NCBI RefSeq assembly: GCF_013044135.1
Contig: NZ_JABEPP010000001.1
Coordinates: forward strand, 496,001 to 560,000
Reading direction: 5' to 3'
DNA: 64,000 bases
Source of the DNA: Enterovirga aerilata
GTDB lineage: Bacteria > Pseudomonadota > Alphaproteobacteria > Rhizobiales > Beijerinckiaceae
Shown: positions 12,607 through 50,503 of the stretch, in pieces
How the letters are laid out: the number at the start of each line of letters is the position of its first letter
How positions within the stretch are numbered: the stretch's first letter is position 1
The notes under the pieces: generated by a model
Told to the model about the DNA's origin: nothing
What the model saw: the letters and a program-made list of their open reading frames with translations, nothing else
Databases searched by the model: none
Translations under genes and position numbers: made by a program

Positions 12607-12868
12607 CGCGCCCTCCGGTTCGCGAGAAGCACAACAGTCGGCCGGCGACGCCGTTCCCCTGCGATCCGCAGCCGGGGCAGCGGGAGGAACACGCCTGTCT
12701 CCTCCCTCGTCAGAAGACATCGTCGGGCGCTGCGGGCGTCGGGAGCCGTCTTGCGCGACCTTCACGCGGGCGGCAGGTGCAACCAGTTTCGATCCACGCT
12801 CCGGCGCAGGAGCGACCTGCGTCCATGCGCCGGCCAGTTCTGCGGCTGCAACTGGAACTGCGCGTGCT

Positions 12869-39067: not shown

Positions 39068-41368
39068 ATGTTCTTCGCGCATTCGACGGACCGGCCCGAC
39101 CGCTCCGACTGGCAGCCGCTTGCGGTTCATCTGACGGGCGTCGGCGCGAAAGCGTCTGAGTTCGCGGCCAAGTTCGGGGCGCCGAAGGCGGCGCTCCTGG
39201 CGGGGCTCGCGCACGACCTCGGGAAGTACAGCCTGGCCTTCCAGGCCCGGCTCTCGGGCGGGAAGGAGCGGGTCGATCACTCGACCGCGGGCGCACGGGA
39301 GGTGGTCGGCGCTACCTTGCCGAAGGCGCCGTGGAGCTGGATGGCCGAGCTCGTCGCCTATGCCATCGCGGGCCATCATGCGGGACTGCCCGACCGGCAC
39401 GGCGGCCGGGGTTCGCTCGAGGAGCGCCTGAAGGCCGCCTCCATCCCCGAACCCGACCCGGCCTGGGCAGGAGAGATCTCCCTGCCCGCGGCAGGGCCGC
39501 CCCGGATCCCGGACCCGGTGAAGGAGCGCTATCCCTTTCAACTGGCCTTTCTCGGCCGGATGATCTTCTCCGCCCTCGTGGACGCAGACCGGCGCGATAC
39601 GGAGGAGCACGCGGTCGCGACGGGACAGGAGGAGGCGAAGCCGCGCGACCGGCCGCTTCTCTCGGAGCAGGTCGACGCGATGATCGCCAGGCTGGACGCG
39701 CATCTCGCGCGGTTGTCCGGGCGAGCCCCGGACGACACGCTGACCGGGATCCGCCGCCGCGTCCTCGACGCCGTGACGGCGCGGGCCGAGGGCGAGCGCG
39801 GCCTCTATACCCTCACGGTACCGACCGGAGGAGGCAAGACGCTCACGGCGACGCGCTTCGCGCTGGGCCATGCGCGCCGCTGGCATCTCGACCGGATCAT
39901 ATACGCCATCCCGTTCACGTCGGTGATCGAGCAGACGGCCGCGATCCTGAAGGGCATCTTCGGCGAGGAGCTTGTTCTGGAGCACCACTCCGCGATCGAG
40001 TTCGGGTCGTCCGAAGACGAGCGCCAATTTCGCGAGCGCGACGAGAGCCTCGGGCTCAAGCTGCGCCTTGCCATGGAGGATTGGGCCGTCCCGGTGGTCG
40101 TGACCACGAACGTCCAGCTGTTCGAGAGCCTGTTCTCGCACCGGCCCTCGCGCTGCCGGAAGCTGCACAACCTGGCAAACAGCGTCATCATCCTCGACGA
40201 GGCTCAGACGATTCCGCTCATGAAGCTGCGGCCCTGCCTGGCAGCGATCGACGAGCTTGCGCGCAACTACGGTTGCACGGTCGTGCTGTGCACGGCCACG
40301 CAGCCGGCCATCGCTGCGCCCGATTTCGGGGGCGGGCTTCACCTCGGGCCGGAGCGCGAGCTTGCGCCTGATCCTGCCGGGCTCCACGAGGAGCTCCGTC
40401 GCGCCGCCATCCGGATCGAGCCTCGGCCGATGACGGACGGCGACCTCGTGGCTGCGCTCGCCTCGGTCGAGCAAGGGTTCGTGATCCTCAACTCGCGCCG
40501 GCACGCGCTCGCGGTCTACCGGGCTGCCCGGCAGGCCGGGCTGGAGGGGCTGATCCATCTCTCGACCCGGCAATATGCCGCCCATCGCCGCGAGATCATC
40601 GCAGGGATCAAGCGCGATCTCGCCGACGGACGACCCTGCCGGCTGGTCGCGACCTCTCTGATCGAGGCCGGCATCGACCTCGACTTCCGGGCCGGCTGGC
40701 GAGCCATGGCGGGGCTCGAAAGCATCGTGCAGAGCGCCGGGCGCGTGAACCGGGAGGGGCGATACGCGGCCGAAGACAGCATCCTCACCGTGTTCACGCC
40801 CGCCGTCGATCAGGACACGCCGCGCGAGATCGCCGGATTCATCAGGGATCTCGGCCGGATGGCCAGGGAGCATTCGGACCTCGCCCATCCGGACGCGATC
40901 CGGGCCTATTTCAGGGAAGTCTACTTCCGGACGGACGCGGAGCTGGACATCATCGAGGTCAGAGAGGACAACGGCGCCACCCGACGCAGCGTGCTCGACT
41001 CGTTTCGGCTCAGCGGGAGCGAGACAAATTTCGCCTACCGCACCGTCGGCGAGAACTTCCGCATGGTCGAGGATCAGGGACTGCCGGTGATCGTCGCGCG
41101 GGACGAGGAAGCCAGTATCGCGCTCGATCGGCTGGGGCGTCCCGACGCGTCGGCCGGCGCGGCCGCACGTCTGCTGCAGCGCTATATCGTCCAGGTGCCG
41201 CAACGGAGTCGGCAGCGGATGCTCGACAGGGGAGACGTTCAATTCCGTGAACATGCTCGCTTCGGGGAGCAATTCCCGGTCCTTGCAGCCGATCTCCTGT
41301 ACCAGGACGAGTTCGGTCTACTTTGGGAGGATGATGCCGAGCTTGGCAGCGAAGATACGATCTTCTAG
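39068..41368 (+). CDS. cas3: CRISPR-associated helicase/nuclease Cas3 (type I-C)
   Basis: A 766-residue protein with an N-terminal HD nuclease and a C-terminal SF2 helicase. HD residues: His21, HD at 49-50 in AHDLGK, His71, HH at 103-104, and DADR at 172-175. Helicase: Walker A PTGGGKT (252-258), Walker B DEAQ (377-380), CTATQPA, SLIEAGIDLDF and QSAGRVNREG. It degrades target DNA recruited by Cascade. All catalytic residues look present. The ATG follows GGAGGGG by 15 bases or GAAGA more closely. It starts a cas operon divergent from modA; the next gene starts 25 bases downstream. Confidence 0.97.
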   Translation: MFFAHSTDRPDRSDWQPLAVHLTGVGAKASEFAAKFGAPKAALLAGLAHDLGKYSLAFQARLSGGKERVDHSTAGAREVVGATLPKAPWSWMAELVAYAIAGHHAGLPDRHGGRGSLEERLKAASIPEPDPAWAGEISLPAAGPPRIPDPVKERYPFQLAFLGRMIFSALVDADRRDTEEHAVATGQEEAKPRDRPLLSEQVDAMIARLDAHLARLSGRAPDDTLTGIRRRVLDAVTARAEGERGLYTLTVPTGGGKTLTATRFALGHARRWHLDRIIYAIPFTSVIEQTAAILKGIFGEELVLEHHSAIEFGSSEDERQFRERDESLGLKLRLAMEDWAVPVVVTTNVQLFESLFSHRPSRCRKLHNLANSVIILDEAQTIPLMKLRPCLAAIDELARNYGCTVVLCTATQPAIAAPDFGGGLHLGPERELAPDPAGLHEELRRAAIRIEPRPMTDGDLVAALASVEQGFVILNSRRHALAVYRAARQAGLEGLIHLSTRQYAAHRREIIAGIKRDLADGRPCRLVATSLIEAGIDLDFRAGWRAMAGLESIVQSAGRVNREGRYAAEDSILTVFTPAVDQDTPREIAGFIRDLGRMAREHSDLAHPDAIRAYFREVYFRTDAELDIIEVREDNGATRRSVLDSFRLSGSETNFAYRTVGENFRMVEDQGLPVIVARDEEASIALDRLGRPDASAGAAARLLQRYIVQVPQRSRQRMLDRGDVQFREHARFGEQFPVLAADLLYQDEFGLLWEDDAELGSEDTIF

Positions 41369-41393: not shown

Positions 41394-42085
41394 TTGGTGG
41401 CGTACGGTGTAAGGCTGAAGGTGTGGGGAGATTACGCGTGCTTCACTCGGCCGGAGATGAAGGTCGAGCGCGTATCGTACGACGTGATGACGCCGTCAGC
41501 GGCCCGAGGGATACTTGAGGCGATCCACTGGAAACCGGCGATTCGCTGGATCATAGACGCCATTCATGTGCTGGAGCCGATCCGCTTTCACTCCATCCGC
41601 CGCAACGAGGTGGGGAGCAAGGTTCCGGCCGCCTCGGCCCGGAGAGCCATGAGGGCCGGCAGCATCGAGGGCCTGCATCTCAGGATCGAGGATGCGCGGC
41701 AGCAGCGTGCCGCGACCGTCCTGGCCTGCGTCGCCTATGTGATCGTTTCGAGCTGACGCCGAAGGCTGATGGGAGCGACAACGCGGGGAAGCATCTCGAC
41801 ACCTTCAACCGGCGCGCCCGCAGGGGCCAGTGCTTCCACCAACCCTGCCTCGGCACCCGGGAGTTCCCGGCCCGCTTCGAGCTGATCGAGCCGGGCGCGC
41901 CGCTGCCGCGCGCGAAGGACGAGCACCGGACGCCAAGTCTCGGCTTCGGAACACCGCGCGACCTCGGCTTCATGCTCTGGGACATCGATCACGCCGGCGA
42001 CCGCTCCTCGATGCTGTTCCGGGCGAGCCTGGCGGACGGCGTGATGCGCGTACCGCCGCCCGGCTCGCCCGAGATCAGGCGGTGA
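41394..42085 (+). pseudogene. cas5c: cas5c with an internal frameshift
   Basis: Cas5c (Cas5d) is the RAMP subunit of type I-C Cascade that also cuts pre-crRNA. Frame one (41394-41756) encodes GVRLKVWGDYACFTRPEMKV, then SYDVMTPSAARGILEAIHWK and ends at RQQRAATVLACVAYVIVSS. The rest of the protein, RFELTPKADG..., HLDTFNRRARRGQCFHQPCL, LGTREFPARFEL, GFMLWDIDHAG, runs from 41744 to 42085 in another frame. Family members read VAYVIEARFEL at this point, so seven bases (two codons plus one) seem to be missing between 41744 and 41747. The two halves are otherwise clean. Start is TTG at 41394 or GTG at 41397. Sequencing error cannot be excluded, but the 25-base spacing to cas3 and 7-base spacing to cas8c are normal. 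Confidence 0.85.
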
Positions 42086-42092
42086 GGGAAGA

Positions 42093-43934
42093 ATGACGAT
42101 CCTGGCTTCGCTCGCGAGAGCCTATGAGCGGCTTCCGGACAAGTCCCCGCCTGGCTATTCGAGCCAGCCGATCGGCTACGTGATCTCTCTCAACCCGGAC
42201 GGCACGCCGGCCCACCTTCCGATCCCGCGGCAGCAAGGTTCCGCGAGGAAGCCGGCCGCATTGCCGATGAGCGTGCCGCAGCCCGTCAAGCGCACCTCCG
42301 GCATCGCGCCGAACCTTCTCTGGGACAAGACCTCCTACGCGCTCGGCGTCACGGCGGCGGGCGGCCGCAGAACCGCCGAGGAACATGCGGCCTTCCGCAA
42401 GCTCCACGCCGAGAAACTGGCGGGCAACGACGATGCCGGGCTGACGGCGCTCAGGCTGTTCCTGGAACGTTGGACGCCGGGCCAGTTCGAGGCGCTCGGC
42501 TGGCCGAAGGAGATGATCGACCAGAACGTCGCTTTCGTGCTGGAAAGCGACCGCCTTCGCCACCTGTTCATCCACGACCGGCCAGCCGCGCGAGCGCTGG
42601 TCGCGCGGGTCTCGTCCGAAGGCGGGGCCCGGCCGGAAGCCGTGTGTCTGGTCACGGGCGAGCGCGCTCCTGTGGCGCGCCTCCACCCGTCCATCAAGGG
42701 CGTCTGGGGAGCGCAGACAGCCGGCGCCTCCATCGTCTCGTTCAACCTCGACGCCTTCACGTCCTACGGCCACGAGCAGGGCGACAACGCGCCGGTCTCG
42801 GAGGCGGCGGCCTTCGCCTATACGACCGCGCTGAACCGGTTCCTGGCGCGCGACAGCCGCAACCGCATCCAGATCGGCGACGCCTCGACCGTGTTCTGGG
42901 CGGATGCGAGTGCGGCCGATGCCGGCAGCGGCGGAGATCTGGCCGCAGAGCTCGAAGGGATGTTCCGCACCCTGCTCGGGGAGGGGATGAGCGCCGAGGA
43001 GGCGCGCGGCATGGCCGAGATGGTGCTCGGCGATTTCTCTCGCGTGGACGAGGTCGGTGAGGCCGAGAAGCTTCGCGCGGCGCTCCGCCAGATCCGGGCC
43101 GGGCGGCCGGGCGAGATCAGGCTCGGTCTCGCCGAGCATGTCCGCTTCCACGTGCTCGGCCTCGCGCCGAACGCGGCCCGCCTGTCTGTCCGGTTCTGGC
43201 TCGACGACGAGTTCGGCGTCATCGTCCGGCGCTACGCCGAGCATGTGGACCGGATGCGGATCGAGCCGAAGCCGCGCGACGAGAGCCCGTCCATCTGGCG
43301 CTGCCTCGTGGAGACGGCGACCCTGCGCAAGACCGAGAACATCCCGCCCAACCTCGCCGGGGATTGGCTGCGCGCGATCCTCGCCGGCACACCCTATCCG
43401 CTCACCCTCCTGACGACGCTGCTCATGCGCATGCGGGCCGACAAGGACGTGAATGCGTTGCGCGCCGCCATGCTGAAGGCCGTGTTGATGCGAAACTTCG
43501 GAATGACCGAGAAGGAGGCGCCCGTGGGGCTCGATCCCGACAACGATCAGCCCGGCTACCTGCTCGGGCGGCTATTTGCGACCTACGAGCGGATCCAGAC
43601 CGACGCTCTGCCGGGGCTGAACGCCACGATCCGGGACAAATTCTACGGGGCCGCTTCGGCGACGCCCCGGAAGGTGTTCACCCTGCTCGACCGCGGTTCG
43701 GCCAATCACCTGGCCAAGATCGCCAAGGACAGCAAGGGCCGGGCCGTCAACCTGGAGAAGCTGCTCAGCTCCATCATGGAGCGGCTCCGGCCGGACCGTG
43801 ATCCCTTTCCGGCCTTTCTCTCCACCGACCAGCAGGCTCTGTTCCCGCTCGGCTATTACCACCAGAAGAGCGAGTTCTTCCGCCGCAAGGAAACCGGGAC
43901 GGCGCCCAGCCCCGTAGAGGAAACCGCTGCATGA
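42093..43934 (+). CDS. cas8c: Type I-C Cascade large subunit Cas8c
   Basis: A 613-residue Csd1-family protein. The N-terminus MTILASLARAYERLPDKSPP and the segments YALGVTAAGG, QFEALGWPKEM, CLVTGERAPVARLHPSIKGV and AAFAYTTALNRFLARDSRNR are characteristic of Csd1/Cas8c, which recognises the PAM and carries target DNA recognition in type I-C Cascade. Full length. GAGGGAAG lies 3 bases before the ATG. It overlaps cas7c by four bases (ATGA). Confidence 0.95.
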   Translation: MTILASLARAYERLPDKSPPGYSSQPIGYVISLNPDGTPAHLPIPRQQGSARKPAALPMSVPQPVKRTSGIAPNLLWDKTSYALGVTAAGGRRTAEEHAAFRKLHAEKLAGNDDAGLTALRLFLERWTPGQFEALGWPKEMIDQNVAFVLESDRLRHLFIHDRPAARALVARVSSEGGARPEAVCLVTGERAPVARLHPSIKGVWGAQTAGASIVSFNLDAFTSYGHEQGDNAPVSEAAAFAYTTALNRFLARDSRNRIQIGDASTVFWADASAADAGSGGDLAAELEGMFRTLLGEGMSAEEARGMAEMVLGDFSRVDEVGEAEKLRAALRQIRAGRPGEIRLGLAEHVRFHVLGLAPNAARLSVRFWLDDEFGVIVRRYAEHVDRMRIEPKPRDESPSIWRCLVETATLRKTENIPPNLAGDWLRAILAGTPYPLTLLTTLLMRMRADKDVNALRAAMLKAVLMRNFGMTEKEAPVGLDPDNDQPGYLLGRLFATYERIQTDALPGLNATIRDKFYGAASATPRKVFTLLDRGSANHLAKIAKDSKGRAVNLEKLLSSIMERLRPDRDPFPAFLSTDQQALFPLGYYHQKSEFFRRKETGTAPSPVEETAA

Positions 43935-44881
43935 CCGCGCTCGCGAACCGCTATGACTTCGTCCTTCTCTTCGACGTGACGAACGGCAATCCCAACGGCG
44001 ATCCGGATGCCGGCAACCTGCCGCGGCTCGACCCCGAGACCAATCGCGGCCTCGTCAGCGACGTCAGCCTCAAGCGGAAGGTCCGCAACTATGCCGAACT
44101 CGCGAAAGCGGGAGAGACCGGTTACGCGATCTATGTCTCGGAGGGCGCCATCCTGAACGACAAGCACCGGGAGGCCTACAAGGTCGCCCGGCCCGGCGAC
44201 GCCAAGGTCGCGACCGAGAAGAAGCTGAACCCGAAGGACGATGCGGAAGCCGCGAAGGTGCGCGGCTTCATGTGCGAGAACTTCTTCGACGTGCGGACCT
44301 TCGGGGCCGTGATGTCGACCGGCATCAATTGCGGTCAGGTGCGCGGGCCGGTGCAGTTCTCCTTCGCGACCTCTGTCGAGCCGATCGTGCCGCTGGAGAT
44401 ATCGATCACCCGCATGGCCGCGACCACGCCGGACGAGAAGTCGAAGCGGGAGCAGGAGAGCGAGGGCGACGAGCGGCGCGAGAACCGCACCATGGGCCGG
44501 AAATACATCGTCCCCTACGGGCTCTACCGGGCCCACGGCTATGTTTCCGCGAAGCTGGCGGAGCGGACCGGCTTCTCGGAGGATGACCTCGCCTTCCTCT
44601 GGGAGGCGCTCGACGGCATGTTCGACCACGACCGATCGGCGGCGCGCGGCGAGATGGCCAAGCGCCGAACGGTGATCTTCAGGCATGCCTCGGCGCTCGG
44701 CAACGCGCCGGCGCACGCGCTCTTCGACCGCGTCAAGGTCGACCGCGTGTACCAGGGCGACAGTCACGAGGTCGGCGATGCGCGCACGTCCAACTGGCCG
44801 CCGGCCCGCCGCTTCGAGGATTACGCCATCCGGATCGATCGGGACGGACTGCCGGAGGGCGTAGAGGTGATCGAACGTTAG
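43931..44881 (+). CDS. cas7c: Type I-C Cascade backbone subunit Cas7c
   Basis: A 316-residue Csd2-family RAMP protein that forms the crRNA-binding filament: FVLLFDVTNGNPNGDPDAGN, SDVSLKRKVRNYAEL and VRGPVQFSFATSVEPI are typical, along with the glycine-rich IVPYGLYRAHGYVSAKLAER. Full length. Starts within the cas8c stop (ATGA), as in other type I-C operons, giving tightly coupled synthesis of the two Cascade subunits. Confidence 0.95.
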   Translation: MTALANRYDFVLLFDVTNGNPNGDPDAGNLPRLDPETNRGLVSDVSLKRKVRNYAELAKAGETGYAIYVSEGAILNDKHREAYKVARPGDAKVATEKKLNPKDDAEAAKVRGFMCENFFDVRTFGAVMSTGINCGQVRGPVQFSFATSVEPIVPLEISITRMAATTPDEKSKREQESEGDERRENRTMGRKYIVPYGLYRAHGYVSAKLAERTGFSEDDLAFLWEALDGMFDHDRSAARGEMAKRRTVIFRHASALGNAPAHALFDRVKVDRVYQGDSHEVGDARTSNWPPARRFEDYAIRIDRDGLPEGVEVIER

Positions 44882-44895
44882 CTTCCGCTTCGGAG

Positions 44896-45546
44896 ATGGC
44901 TGCGACCCCCGACCCCGCCGCCGAGGACGCGCTGATCCCCCTCTCGGCGCTGCAGCACCACCTGTTCTGCCCGCGGCAATGCGCGCTGATCCACGTGGAG
45001 CAGATCTGGGCGGAGGATCGGGCCACGGCGGAAGGGCGTCTCCTGCACGAGCGGCCGGATGACGGACGCGGCGAGACCCGGCCGGGCCTGCGCGTGGCGC
45101 GGGGCATCGCGATCCGCTCCTTCGCCCTCGGCGTGTCGGGCAAGGCCGATGTCGTCGAGTTCCACGGCGCCGGCCCGGGCCGGATCGGCCGGCCGTTTCC
45201 GGTCGAGTACAAGCGCGGCAGGCCGAAGGCGCACCGGGCGGACGAGGTGCAGCTCTGCGCCCAGGCGATCTGCCTGGAGGAGATGTTCGGCATCACCGTG
45301 CCCGAAGGCGCGCTCTTCTACGGCGCGACCCGCCGGCGCTGTCCGGTCAGCTTCGACGACGGCCTGCGCGAACTCACGGCCCGCGTGGCGGCGCAAGCCC
45401 GGACCATGATCCAGGCCGGCCGGACACCGCCGCCCCTGCGCATCCCGGGATGCCGCCGCTGCTCCCTCCAGGATGCCTGCCGGCCCGATCGGCTGCAGAA
45501 GCCGCCTTCCGTCGCCCGCTGGCTCGCCCGCCAGCTCGCCGCCTGA
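44896..45546 (+). CDS. cas4: CRISPR adaptation nuclease Cas4
   Basis: A 216-residue RecB-like exonuclease that helps choose spacers with a correct PAM. Four cysteines of the iron-sulphur site are at 25 and 29 (HHLFCPRQCALIH) and 186, 189, 195 (CRRCSLQDAC). RecB active-site residues: GKADVVEFH and FPVEYKRGRPK. ATG at 44896; 14 bases after cas7c. Followed by cas1 after 8 bases. Confidence 0.93.
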   Translation: MAATPDPAAEDALIPLSALQHHLFCPRQCALIHVEQIWAEDRATAEGRLLHERPDDGRGETRPGLRVARGIAIRSFALGVSGKADVVEFHGAGPGRIGRPFPVEYKRGRPKAHRADEVQLCAQAICLEEMFGITVPEGALFYGATRRRCPVSFDDGLRELTARVAAQARTMIQAGRTPPPLRIPGCRRCSLQDACRPDRLQKPPSVARWLARQLAA

Positions 45547-45554
45547 GCCCGTCC

Positions 45555-46595
45555 ATGCGCCGGATGCTCAACACGATCTACGTGACGAGCGACGGCGCCT
45601 GGCTGCGCAAGGACGGCGCGAACCTCGTCGTCGAAGTTGAGGGGACGGAACGCGGCCGGGCGCCGCTGCACATGCTGGACGGCATCGTGTCGTTCGGGCG
45701 ACCAGGCGCCTCGCCGGCGCTGCTGGCGGCCTGCGCGGAGGCCGGTATCACGGTGTCGCATCTCGATCCGAACGGCCGCTTCCTGGCCCGCGTGGAAGGG
45801 CCCCGGACCGGCAACGTGCTGCTGCGGCGGGCGCAGTTCCGGCTGGCGGACGATCCGGCTCGCGCCGTGCCGATCGTGCGCGGGATCGTGGCCGGCAAGG
45901 CCGCCAACCAGCGCGTCGTGATCCAGCGTGCCCTGAGGGACCACGGGCCCGGCCTGCCCCGGGAGCAGGCGGAGGCGCTCGAAGCGGCCGAGCGCCGGCT
46001 GGCGGATGTCGCTCGCCGCACGCTGCCGGCGACCGAGATCGACACCCTGCGCGGGCTCGAAGGCGAAGCGGCCCTGGTCTATTTCGGCTGCTTCGACGCC
46101 ATGCTGCGCGTCGAGGGGGAGGCCTTCCGGTTCCGCGGGCGCTCCCGCCGTCCGCCGCTCGACCGAGTGAACGCACTGCTCTCGTTTCTCTACGCCATGC
46201 TCGGCCACGATTGCCGCTCGGCTCTGGAAGCGCATGGGCTCGACCCGCAGGTCGGTTTCCTCCACGCGGCCCGGCCGGGCCGCGCGAGTCTCGCGCTCGA
46301 CCTGATGGAGGAGCTCCGTCCCGTGCTGGCGGACCGCCTTGCGCTGAGCCTCGTCAACCGCCGGCAGCTCGCGGCGGACGATTTCGTCGTGGAGGAGGCT
46401 GGCGGCGTGCGGCTCACCGACGAAGCCCGCAGGCGGGTCCTGGTCGCCTGGCAGGAGCGCAAGCGCGACGAGCTCCGCCATCCCTTTCTCGACGAGGCGG
46501 TGCCGCTCGGGCTGCTTGCGCACGTGCAGGCGCAGCTGCTCGCGCGCACCCTGCGCGGCGACCTCGACGGCTACCCCGCCTTCATCTGGAAATAG
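45555..46595 (+). CDS. cas1: CRISPR integrase Cas1
   Basis: A 346-residue type I-C Cas1, the integrase that inserts new spacers at the leader. RRMLNTIYVTSDGAWLRKDG is the family start; catalytic residues lie in GLEGEAALVYF (Glu), GFLHAARPGRASLALDLMEE (His and Asp/Glu). Full length with no frameshift. The ATG at 45555 is favoured; another ATG at 45564 would drop three residues. Confidence 0.95.
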   Translation: MRRMLNTIYVTSDGAWLRKDGANLVVEVEGTERGRAPLHMLDGIVSFGRPGASPALLAACAEAGITVSHLDPNGRFLARVEGPRTGNVLLRRAQFRLADDPARAVPIVRGIVAGKAANQRVVIQRALRDHGPGLPREQAEALEAAERRLADVARRTLPATEIDTLRGLEGEAALVYFGCFDAMLRVEGEAFRFRGRSRRPPLDRVNALLSFLYAMLGHDCRSALEAHGLDPQVGFLHAARPGRASLALDLMEELRPVLADRLALSLVNRRQLAADDFVVEEAGGVRLTDEARRRVLVAWQERKRDELRHPFLDEAVPLGLLAHVQAQLLARTLRGDLDGYPAFIWK

Positions 46596-46598
46596 CCG

Positions 46599-46889
46599 AT
46601 GCTCATGCTCTTGACTTACGACGTGAACGTCGAGACGAAGATCGGGCGGCGCCGGCTCCGCCGCGTCGCACGCGCCTGCCTCGATTTCGGGCAGCGGGTG
46701 CAGAACTCGGTCTTCGAATGCGAGGTCGACCCGGCGCAGTGGACGGCCCTGCGGGCGCGCCTCGTGGCCGAAATCGACCCGGCCGTCGACAGCCTCCGGT
46801 TCTACCGGCTCGGCGCGGAAGGGCGCAGGCGCGTCGAGCATGTCGGCGCCAAGCCCGCACCCGACCTCGAGGGGCCTCTCCTGTTCTGA
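46599..46889 (+). CDS. cas2: CRISPR adaptation protein Cas2
   Basis: A 96-residue protein with the ferredoxin-like start MLMLLTYDVNV, LRRVARACLDFGQRVQNSVF and SLRFYRLGAEGRRRVEHVG, the type I-C Cas2 pattern. It bridges two Cas1 dimers in spacer integration. 3 bases separate it from cas1. The array begins 181 bases downstream. Confidence 0.95.
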   Translation: MLMLLTYDVNVETKIGRRRLRRVARACLDFGQRVQNSVFECEVDPAQWTALRARLVAEIDPAVDSLRFYRLGAEGRRRVEHVGAKPAPDLEGPLLF

Positions 46890-47070: not shown

Positions 47071-50000
47071 GTCGCTCCCTCACGGGAGCGCGGATCGAAA
47101 CGAGGGCACCGATGCGGGCAATGGCATCGGTCGAGAGTCGCTCCCTCACGGGAGCGCGGATCGAAACCACACGCTTGAACCAGTGGGCCCGCCCATCTCC
47201 AGGTCGCTCCCTCACGGGAGCGCGGATCGAAACTCGCGTTCAGGCGCGAAGGCACGTCGCGACTGGCGCGTCGCTCCCTCACGGGAGCGCGGATCGAAAC
47301 ACGATCCGCGTGAACAGCCAGATCTACACCACGCCGTCGCTCCCTCACGGGAGCGCGGATCGAAACTCGATGGCCTCGTCCGGAATGGGATGCTCGATCT
47401 GTCGCTCCCTCACGGGAGCGCGGATCGAAACATCGAAGCGTGTGAGGACATCGGTTTCGATGTCTGTCGCTCCCTCACGGGAGCGCGGATCGAAACACCT
47501 CCAACGTGCATGTTGCGGTGATGGTGCTCGTCGCTCCCTCACGGGAGCGCGGATCGAAACCCGTCGGGCTCCTGACCACGATGGCCGTGGCCGGCGTCGC
47601 TCCCTCACGGGAGCGCGGATCGAAACTGCTCGGTATCGGCCTCCTTGTTCTCAAGCTCGGGTCGCTCCCTCACGGGAGCGCGGATCGAAACCAATAGATC
47701 ACTCCCTTTGGGAGTGATTGAGCCAAGTCGCTCCCTCACGGGAGCGCGGATCGAAACTCCTATGCCGCTGGCGACGTCGTGCCGGTCGAGGAGTCGCTCC
47801 CTCACGGGAGCGCGGATCGAAACTCCGCCGCCTCGAGCTCGCGCGCCAGGCGATCCCGTCGCTCCCTCACGGGAGCGCGGATCGAAACATGAGGGCATAG
47901 GCCTCGCGCGCCTGGGCCACATGTCGCTCCCTCACGGGAGCGCGGATCGAAACTGCGGGTTGCCGATGATGTAGCGGCCCTCGCCGTGTCGCTCCCTCAC
48001 GGGAGCGCGGATCGAAACGATTGCTACGGCCTCGCCCGCTACGTCCAGCGCGGTCGCTCCCTCACGGGAGCGCGGATCGAAACCCGGACGCACCACTTGT
48101 TCAGGATGTCGCGCAGGGTCGCTCCCTCACGGGAGCGCGGATCGAAACGGTATTGGCGTATTGTTTGCGCTCGCGCTCCAGCGTCGCTCCCTCACGGGAG
48201 CGCGGATCGAAACAAGACGGTCGTCGTGGACACCGCCGGCCGGGCGCTCGTCGCTCCCTCACGGGAGCGCGGATCGAAACCAGGGGCTCCGCTTCCCGTC
48301 ATAGATGGGCACCACGTCGCTCCCTCACGGGAGCGCGGATCGAAACAGGAGCGAGAACGGGACGCGCGTTGCGAAGCGGTGGTCGCTCCCTCACGGGAGC
48401 GCGGATCGAAACAGAACCGACGCGCGCAACGCCGCCCGCCGCCACGCGTCGCTCCCTCACGGGAGCGCGGATCGAAACAGCAGGATCGCGACACGGTCTG
48501 CCGTCGGCGCAGGTCGCTCCCTCACGGGAGCGCGGATCGAAACTCGCGGTTGTCGCGCTGGTATCGCAACTGCCGCTGTCGCTCCCTCACGGGAGCGCGG
48601 ATCGAAACTCGCAGGAGCTCGGCACGGGCAAATGCGACGTCAGTCGCTTCCTCACGGGAGCGCGGATCGAAACTCCTCAATCTGTCGATATTTGGCGGGG
48701 ATTGGCGGGTCGCTCCCTCACGGGAGCGCGGATCGAAACATGGGCGTGATGGTGAACACTCTGTCGCTGGCCGTCGCTCCCTCACGGGAGCGCGGATCGA
48801 AACTGGAAACGCTCCCCCATCACACGCCCGAACTTCGTCGCTCCCTCACGGGAGCGCGGATCGAAACCATTCGAGCTCCTCGTGGATCTCGCCGCGATCC
48901 CGTCGCTCCCTCACGGGAGCGCGGATCGAAACTGGAAACGCTCCCCCATCACACGCCCGAACTTCGTCGCTCCCTCACGGGAGCGCGGATCGAAACCATT
49001 CGAGCTCCTCGTGGATCTCGCCGCGATCCCGTCGCTCCCTCACGGGAGCGCGGATCGAAACGACGATCATCTGCAGGTCGGGAGCGTCGGTCTTGTCGCT
49101 CCCTCACGGGAGCGCGGATCGAAACTTGATCGGGTCGGACACGGCGCGCGCCTGCAGCAGTCGCTCCCTCACGGGAGCGCGGATCGAAACCGGATCAGGA
49201 TGTCGAAGCCCGGCTACGACGCCCTGGTCGCTCCCTCACGGGAGCGCGGATCGAAACTCAACCACCTCTGGCGCGACCGACTGCAGCCCTGTCGCTCCCT
49301 CACGGGAGCGCGGATCGAAACAGGGCCGTGCGAGAGGAGGCGCGCCACCTCCGCCGTCGCTCCCTCACGGGAGCGCGGATCGAAACGTGCTGGGGGCAGG
49401 CTTCGTGCTCGGCGGCTGCCTGTCGCTCCCTCACGGGAGCGCGGATCGAAACGCGGCGCTCCTGCCCGGCGTCCCGGACGGGACGCGTCGCTCCCTCACG
49501 GGAGCTCGGATCGAAACAGATCGCGGACGACGGCAGCGTGGAGCGCGACCAGTCGCTCCCTCACGGGAGCGCGGATCGAAACCACCGCGCAATGGCGCGA
49601 GCGCTGGGTCGGGGTCGTCGCTCCCTCACGGGAGCGCGGATCGAAACTCCGGCGACAGCATGGTCGAATACGCGCTGTTCTGTCGCTCCCTCACGGGGGC
49701 GCGGATCGAAACTGGCGCGGCAAGAAGAACGGCACGGAGGGCCACGGTCGCTCCCTCACGGGGGCGCGGATCGAAACTCGTTCCTCGGCGCTCATCTCGG
49801 CGCCCCCGGGGTGTCGCTCCCTCACGGGGGCGCGGATCGAAACACCGCGGAGGCCGCCGAGAAGATCGGCCTGTCCGTCGCTCCCTCACGGGGGCGCGGA
49901 TCGAAACTTCGCCGCGCTCCTGCGCAACGCGCCCGGGCGGGTGTCGCTCCCTCACGGGAGCGCGGATCGAAACGACCACTGGTTCACGGAGCCCGTCTCG

Positions 50001-50503
50001 CTCGACGAGTCGCTCCCTCACGGGAGCGCGGATCGAAACATCTATGCCGATGGCACCATCACGCTCACGTCGGGCGTCGCTCCCTCACGGGAGCGCGGAT
50101 CGAAACGCCTGGGATGCGGGCCCGATTCCCCAGACCTCGGTCGCTCCCTTACGGGAGCGCGGATCGAAACCGCAAGGCCAATCCAACCCTGATCCTCCGC
50201 GCCCTCCGAAGTCGCTCCCTCACGGGAGCGCGGATCGAAACAGGTTCGCGGTGACGTTCGTGCGGACGCGCGGGGGGTCGCTCCCTCACGGGAGCGCGGA
50301 TCGAAACGCTATCCGCTCCTGCTCGCACTCGCGATCCGGGCGTCGCTCCCTCACGGGGGCGCGGATCGAAACAACAACCAGCTCCCGGCCGGCTCGCGCG
50401 AGGCGGGTCGCTCCCTCACGGGGGCGCGGATCGAAACGAGTTGGAGGCGTGCGATGACACGGGTCGTCTCGCGTCGCTCCCTCGCGGGAGCGCGGATCGA
50501 AAC
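47071..50503 (+). CRISPR. Type I-C CRISPR array, 53 repeats and 52 spacers
   Basis: Repeat of 31 bp with stem CGCTCCC / GGGAGCG and loop TCAC; the 3' end CGGATCGAAAC equals the 11-base 5' handle made by Cas5c. Spacers are 33-36 bases except one of 40 (50171-50210). The first 24 repeats are identical. Variants: C to T at repeat base 7 (48643), T change in the 3' stem arm (49487), GGGGG in place of GGGAG (49682, 49747, 49813, 49877, 50342, 50407), C to T in the loop (50140) and A to G in the loop of the last repeat (50473). Two spacers occur twice (48804-48836 and 48868-48901). No spacer matches this window by eye. Confidence 0.97.
48773..49030 (+). repeat. Tandem duplication of two repeat-spacer units within the array
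   Basis: Bases 48773-48901 and 48902-49030 carry the same two spacers (beginning TGGAAACGCT and CATTCGAGCT) and their repeats. The 129-base block is copied head to tail without any difference, so it arose by recombination between repeats or replication slippage and is young. Confidence 0.9.

Follow-up and report, generated by a model that had tools for sequence, protein, structure and literature searches.

The type I-C locus of Enterovirga aerilata carries a broken cas5c

In type I-C CRISPR systems, Cas5c has two roles, cleaving the pre-crRNA and, within Cascade, capping the 5' handle. We asked why the gene for this protein is broken in Enterovirga aerilata, within a type I-C locus that otherwise appears complete. 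The locus lies in the window, by which we mean the whole stretch of DNA analyzed (64,000 nucleotides), and comprises the following features.

39068..41368, + strand: cas3 (766 aa), open; TIGR01587, TIGR01596
41397..41756, + strand: cas5c, upstream part; frame 0, premature TGA at its end; TIGR01876 match
41742..41749, + strand: site of a 7-nt shortfall compared with relatives; 2 nt here, 9 nt in 98/98 relative loci (93 distinct sequences)
41744..42085, + strand: cas5c, downstream part; -1 frame; TIGR01876 match
42093..43934, + strand: cas8c/csd1 (613 aa); TIGR01863, E 1.6e-163
43931..44881, + strand: cas7c/csd2 (316 aa); TIGR02589, E 1.6e-108
44896..45546, + strand: cas4 (216 aa); TIGR00372, E 7.8e-36
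45555..46595, + strand: cas1c (346 aa); TIGR03640, E 2.4e-147
46599..46889, + strand: cas2 (96 aa); TIGR01573, E 9.2e-18
47071..50503, + strand: CRISPR array of 53 repeats and 52 spacers

The gene order cas3-cas5c-cas8c-cas7c-cas4-cas1-cas2 and the subtype-specific Cas8c, Cas7c and Cas1c are those of type I-C, as is the array, with 53 repeats of 31 nt and spacers of 33-36 nt except one of 40. The six cas genes besides cas5c are single open frames with family matches above the curated cut-offs. A preliminary description of the window had counted 53 repeats and judged the other cas genes intact, and both statements held. Repeats similar to those of the window adjoin two related loci, L009 and L054. 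Within the array, spacers 27-28 recur exactly as spacers 29-30 (window 48804-49030), an internal duplication of two units. A single repeat-like site lies at window 12785-12821 on the - strand, approximately 34 kb from the array, and a genome-wide pattern search detected no further copies of the repeat outside the array.

Frame 0 of cas5c starts at GTG 41397 or TTG 41394, reads ...VAYVIVSS and ends with a TGA at 41754-41756, after 119-120 codons. The C-terminal half (RFELTPKADG...) is in the -1 frame, which is open from 41744 to 42085. Both halves match the Cas5c model TIGR01876, the upstream half over profile positions 1-89 (E 1.7e-31) and the downstream half over positions 106-203 (E 5.9e-12). 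As a measure of the gap, we counted the nucleotides separating I, where the shared residues of the first half end, from F, where those of the second half begin. The spacing was 2 nt in the window and 9 nt in all 98 relative loci, five of the 93 distinct sequences having each been fetched as two loci; this count excludes L075, which is cut by a contig end, and four loci whose cas5c is a copy of the one in the window. The gene of the window is thus 7 nt short compared with every relative measured. Further, the stretch spanned by the two matches together is free of stops in 97 of the 98 relative loci, the exception being L038, which carries a nonsense codon. The frameshift is therefore present in the assembled sequence, and the locus encodes no intact Cas5c that could serve as the pre-crRNA endonuclease, given that the gene is split over two frames and has no second copy. 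The preliminary description had reported the stop of the first frame, the RFELTPKADG motif kept in a second frame that continues to 42085, and a deletion of seven bases; its description was correct wherever it could be tested.

Three spacers match a prophage in the same genome perfectly

A search of the genome with the whole array as query (E up to 1) yielded 38 matches, including the array itself. Three whole spacers matched at 100% and five more weakly (86-97%), all in the interval 101-156 kb of contig C8. The other matches were one of 94% on contig C3 and the repeat-like site at window 12785-12821, and 27 further matches at E 0.014-0.62 were taken as chance. The eight spacers matching C8 are as follows (all on the + strand of the window; the trinucleotide directly 5' of the protospacer is given last).

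47102..47136, +: spacer 1; 0 mismatches to prophage C8:143381-143415(-); TTC
47168..47202, +: spacer 2; 0 mismatches to prophage C8:143564-143598(-); TTC
47367..47400, +: spacer 5; 0 mismatches to prophage C8:156075-156108(+); TTC
48214..48249, +: spacer 18; 3 mismatches to prophage C8:101344-101379(-); TTT rather than TTC
48281..48315, +: spacer 19; 2 mismatches to prophage C8:142162-142196(-); TTC
48347..48381, +: spacer 20; 5 mismatches to prophage C8:140540-140574(-); TTC
48413..48447, +: spacer 21; 3 mismatches to prophage C8:152467-152501(-); TTC
49062..49094, +: spacer 31; 2 mismatches to prophage C8:154215-154247(-); TTC

Eight of the 52 spacers thus matched C8:85001-185000 with five mismatches or fewer. 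The next-best spacers had 9 mismatches (four such spacers were taken as chance), and reversed spacers, used as a control, had 10 at best. TTC lay directly 5' of the protospacer in seven of the eight cases (P = 9e-13 for at least 7/8 at the prophage TTC frequency of 1.4%), and TTC has been demonstrated as the type I-C PAM in Xanthomonas oryzae (PMC8406640). Spacers 1, 2 and 5 are therefore self-targeting, being identical to the cell's own chromosome next to a TTC whose function as PAM we take by analogy with X. oryzae. A region making up 1.36% of the genome holds all three perfect whole-spacer matches (P 2.5e-6 for even draws), and these spacers therefore most likely came from the phage and not from the chromosome at large. 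The C3 match, of spacer 48 (window 50171-50210, 40 nt) to C3:611442-611481, is doubtful, and no TTC directly precedes it; the last 34 nt of the spacer match from C3:611448, between two open frames, with 2 mismatches (8 over all 40).

The matched region is an integrated tailed prophage

The matched region of C8, a contig other than that of the window, is a 63-kb prophage (C8 about 95150-158270) in a tRNA-Thr gene. An exact 22-bp repeat occurs at C8:95177 and 158249, the latter inside tRNA-Thr(GGT), and a 49-nt stretch at C8:95150-95198 matches the tRNA-Thr(GGT) region at 92%. Just inside the left repeat is an integrase gene (PHROG 216, E 4e-8), which we read as being of the tyrosine type, and between the repeats are genes for a Sak4-like annealing protein, a primase-helicase, large terminase, portal, tape measure and tail proteins, and an endolysin/amidase. 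The integrase, the attachment repeat in a tRNA gene, and the terminase, portal, tail and lysis genes together identify an integrated tailed prophage.

An IMG/VR provirus record of 60,155 bases was 100% identical over the 23.2 kb compared. This record probably derives from the same genome, and it therefore supports the provirus call but does not represent an independent phage. As for free relatives of the phage, neither exact IMG/VR queries using spacers 1, 2 and 5 nor a protein query using one tail protein brought up anything besides a single provirus record, which showed no differences over the parts compared and probably comes from the genome of the window. One 8-kb stretch of the prophage nowhere reached 80% query coverage against phage records, the best 15 of 33 records being tape-measure matches at 2% coverage. 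The right-hand flank of the prophage on C8 is 70-84% similar to genus-mates, and C8 is therefore unlikely to be a contaminant contig. No empty attachment site could be shown in the genus-mate comparison with G007, which has the tRNA and the right neighbor and whose left flank did not align. The prophage also carries a DNA polymerase sliding-clamp-like gene with Pfam beta-clamp domains (C8:109935-111065), a HicB-like antitoxin gene adjoining a small toxin-family gene (C8:129681-130294) and its own tRNA-Thr(TGT) (C8:119783-119857).

Loss of cas5c as a probable escape from autoimmunity

Three perfect spacer matches with the right PAM provide a selective reason for the break in cas5c. A working type I-C system should attack the chromosome of this strain, and we therefore read the frameshift as an escape from CRISPR autoimmunity. 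If crRNAs were made, spacers 1, 2 and 5 would lead Cascade-Cas3 to three perfect TTC-flanked chromosomal sites. Without Cas5c, the 5' handle would remain uncut and no Cascade would form; with no crRNA to guide Cas3 to the prophage, the cell would survive and coexist with it. Since the cell exists, it presumably does not target itself, and the broken cas5c suffices to explain this and is alone in having direct sequence support. We estimate a probability of about two in three for this reading, in which a type I-C system, complete in other respects, was recently inactivated by the frameshift in a self-targeted lysogen and the cell could thereby survive with the prophage; the break would then presumably have been fixed by selection against self-targeting. 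The preliminary description had interpreted the frameshift as a possibly recent loss of crRNA processing. The break and the apparent youth of the loss stood, the Cas5c model found no second copy, and the prophage, which that interpretation lacked, changed the meaning of the finding once the genome beyond the window was searched.

The expected outcome of the break is illustrated by the cas5d deletion mutant of X. oryzae PXO99A, likewise a type I-C system with a TTC PAM and without Cas5, which was left with neither intermediate nor mature crRNA (PMC8406640). That deletion was engineered, unlike the natural break examined here. Given this result, loss of array processing is a reasonable expectation in the present strain, in which the break would abolish crRNA production.

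A counterpart for the selective side comes from DMS3 lysogens of Pseudomonas aeruginosa PA14, whose CRISPR system is reportedly of type I-F. In evolved lysogens of this kind, in which the prophage is likewise matched by a host spacer, cas-gene breaks were among the outcomes, with cas7 or cas8 disrupted in 4 of 18 isolates by three frameshifts and a small deletion (PMC11406979). That case was a laboratory experiment with an imperfect match (PMC11406979), whereas ours is a sequenced genome with a type I-C system, three perfect matches and a broken cas5c. Mutation of cas genes is also among the listed ways of escaping self-targeting (introduction of PMC10810201; PMC6990116). Escape of this kind is thus already described, and what is new is the natural type I-C case. 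Among the papers listed from the literature searched, which lay mostly outside subscription journals, we noticed none reporting a natural cas5c frameshift in a self-targeting type I-C system. The locus is of interest as a natural, single broken cas gene tied to a selective cause that is visible within the same genome.

Age of the lesion and cas lesions among relatives

It is rather unlikely, on the evidence below, that cas5c was lost by ordinary decay, that is, by drift or some other cost, and that the prophage entered later, the self-matches being a consequence of the loss and not its cause. To date the lesion, we compared the window with 61 relatives having all five pieces (both Cas5c halves, Cas8c, Cas7c and Cas1), using terminal branches on a common tree. 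The ratio of the cas5c branch to the sum of the cas7c and cas8c branches ranked 29th of 62 for the upstream half and 52nd of 62 for the downstream half (rank 1 being the fastest); thus, terminal branch lengths gave no indication of accelerated cas5c evolution in the window. Further, no column on which 97% or more of the relatives agree was lost in the window (0/40 and 0/30 in the two halves, 0/70 in all). Because strongly conserved positions are retained in both halves, the lesion looks young, in keeping with the suggestion of the preliminary description that the loss may be recent, and we dismissed an old pseudogene on both rate and conserved columns. The length of the array and the identity of its first 24 repeats likewise suggest that the loss of cas5c was probably late, which argues against ordinary decay. 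So do the perfect matches of the leader-end spacers 1 and 2 and the concentration of the perfect matches in so small a part of the genome.

In favor of decay, broken type I-C loci are ordinary. We surveyed the best 80 of 90 related loci found by their Cas8c, of which 67 to 80, depending on the gene, had more than 80% of it covered; some of the lesions may be sequencing errors. At least one apparent cas lesion was present in 10 of the 80, and cas5c was affected in just one of these. By gene, the apparent lesions numbered six in cas3, five in cas1, two in cas8 and one in cas5c, with none in cas7, cas4 or cas2; loci with apparent lesions, mostly of cas3 and cas1, included L017, L018, L035, L036, L050, L054, L059, L078 and L081. 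Breaks in cas5c are thus uncommon. The broken cas5c of a relative is that of L038, the type I-C locus of Aurantimonas sp. VKM B-3413, which has an independent in-frame stop at residue 45. Unlike the window, however, L038 is a decaying locus, with cas1 in two frames and only 2 repeats in the part examined.

Cas lesions also occur where no self-targeting is known, which speaks against the escape reading. We searched partial arrays of two other loci at E up to 0.01, in one genome each, a number too small to act as a control. The 8-repeat array of L054, which has cas3 in two frames, gave no match to its genome. L009, in which cas5c is open and no lesion was counted, had no perfect self-match; within one spacer, 31 nt matched imperfectly, at 91%. 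Decay is further favored by the presence of decayed CRISPR remnants on contigs C5 and C6 of the same genome and by the absence of cas5c from the eight genus-mates searched, whose completeness is only 61-99%.

In an order-level sample of 397 genomes, 35 had a Cas5c match. In all of these but the genome of the window, a match spanned nearly the full length of the Cas5c model. A second, partial cas5c (profile 1-85) was observed in G480 at C28:9954-10271, with a full copy elsewhere in that genome. L089, from a genome (G065) of the same family as the present organism, and L009, from Chelatococcus albus, share an identical cas5c, and the organism is therefore probably related to Chelatococcus at the family level.

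Order of spacer capture, lysogeny and the break

We lean toward an order in which the phage-derived spacers came first and were followed by lysogeny in a cas5c mutant, the alternative being a break followed by spacer capture. The targets of the leader-most spacers 1 and 2 are 183 nt apart; on the same strand, the target of the leader-distal spacer 19 lies 1.2-1.4 kb away from them. If sites were drawn evenly, the chance that both fell this near one another and this near any of the five mismatched targets would be about 0.001; these distances were chosen after seeing the data, and they therefore provide only a hint of priming. Priming requires a working effector, and the break, if priming occurred, would therefore postdate the capture of spacers 1 and 2. 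Against this order, cas1, cas2 and cas4 are open. Spacers may thus have been captured after the break, and capture after loss of the effector is named as a general possibility in a review (PMC6990116). An acquisition-only state, in which the effector is off and the array may keep recording phages, including the cell's own prophage, free of penalty and of immunity, seems unlikely to us; spacers 1 and 2 could have been acquired in this state, or else shortly ahead of the break, primed by spacer 19.

The array appears to record repeated encounters with one phage lineage, the mismatched spacers 18-21 and 31 being leader-distal and the perfectly matching spacers 1, 2 and 5 near the leader. Because this record stands beside a lesion apparently too young for decay, the order of capture, lysogeny and immune loss could be tested in sister isolates.

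Anti-CRISPR proteins as an alternative protection

We consider it quite improbable that the prophage encodes a type I-C inhibitor and that the break in cas5c followed as a neutral change. Anti-CRISPR proteins are often unrecognizable, and in one scanned subset 14 of 20 prophage proteins had no PHROG match. Nevertheless, of the 78 prophage genes called by a crude caller, 47 distinct genes were scanned (40 against PHROGs, 20 against NCBIfam and 7 against Pfam, most in one library only), and no named anti-CRISPR was detected among them. A precedent exists in Xanthomonas albilineans, a living cell with a natural type I-C system and self-matching spacers, whose self-targeting type I-C and I-F1 systems were expected to be protected by anti-CRISPRs and in which AcrIC11 and AcrIF12Xal were found to block degradation (PMC10810201). 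However, transcripts of all 13 cas genes were detected in that organism (PMC10810201), whereas one cas gene is broken here.

Sequencing error and rescue of cas5c

A sequencing or assembly error at 41744 is very improbable. The difference is 7 nt rather than one base, cas5c contains no homopolymer of five or more, and the adjoining long cas genes are single open frames. Further, the genome (4.65 Mb) is assembled in 10 contigs with a completeness score of 100%, and the self-matching spacers provide an independent reason for inactivation.

The preliminary description had named a second cas5c, an alternative enzyme or ribosomal frameshifting as possible rescues and had proposed a search for a second copy. 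When the Cas5c model was run on the whole genome, it matched just the two halves. As for an alternative enzyme, Cas6 was absent at E up to 1 with PF10040, the sole Cas6 model used, and the general Cas5 model found no other cas5 over its cut-off in the whole genome (a remaining match at E 0.34 was dismissed as chance); these models thus lend that suggestion no support. Frameshifting fared no better, and it is hardly credible that functional Cas5c is still made, whether by -1 ribosomal frameshifting or from two pieces translated on their own: although the strongly conserved columns are kept in both halves and the -1 frame lacks stops as far upstream as 41519, the stretch 41510-41756 contains no slippery heptamer X XXY YYZ such as programmed -1 frameshifting uses, for an internal restart, the downstream frame offers neither ATG nor GTG nor TTG upstream of 41972, and the slipped product, which from the 7 nt would be two residues short, would still be shorter than in each relative measured. 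We found no catalytic residues of Cas5d in the literature and hence claim no residue mapping.

Other CRISPR remnants in the genome

Extra cas1 matches were observed at C5:548454-548774 and C6:35190-35435 (L113 and L114). We read them as decayed remnants, presumably of type I-E, a label that we take from the style of the repeats. In the C5 remnant, a Cas3 HD start and a piece of Cas1 are fused in a single open frame, and two short repeats adjoin it. The C6 remnant is a shorter copy, of which a 719-bp part is common to C5 at 97.9% identity.
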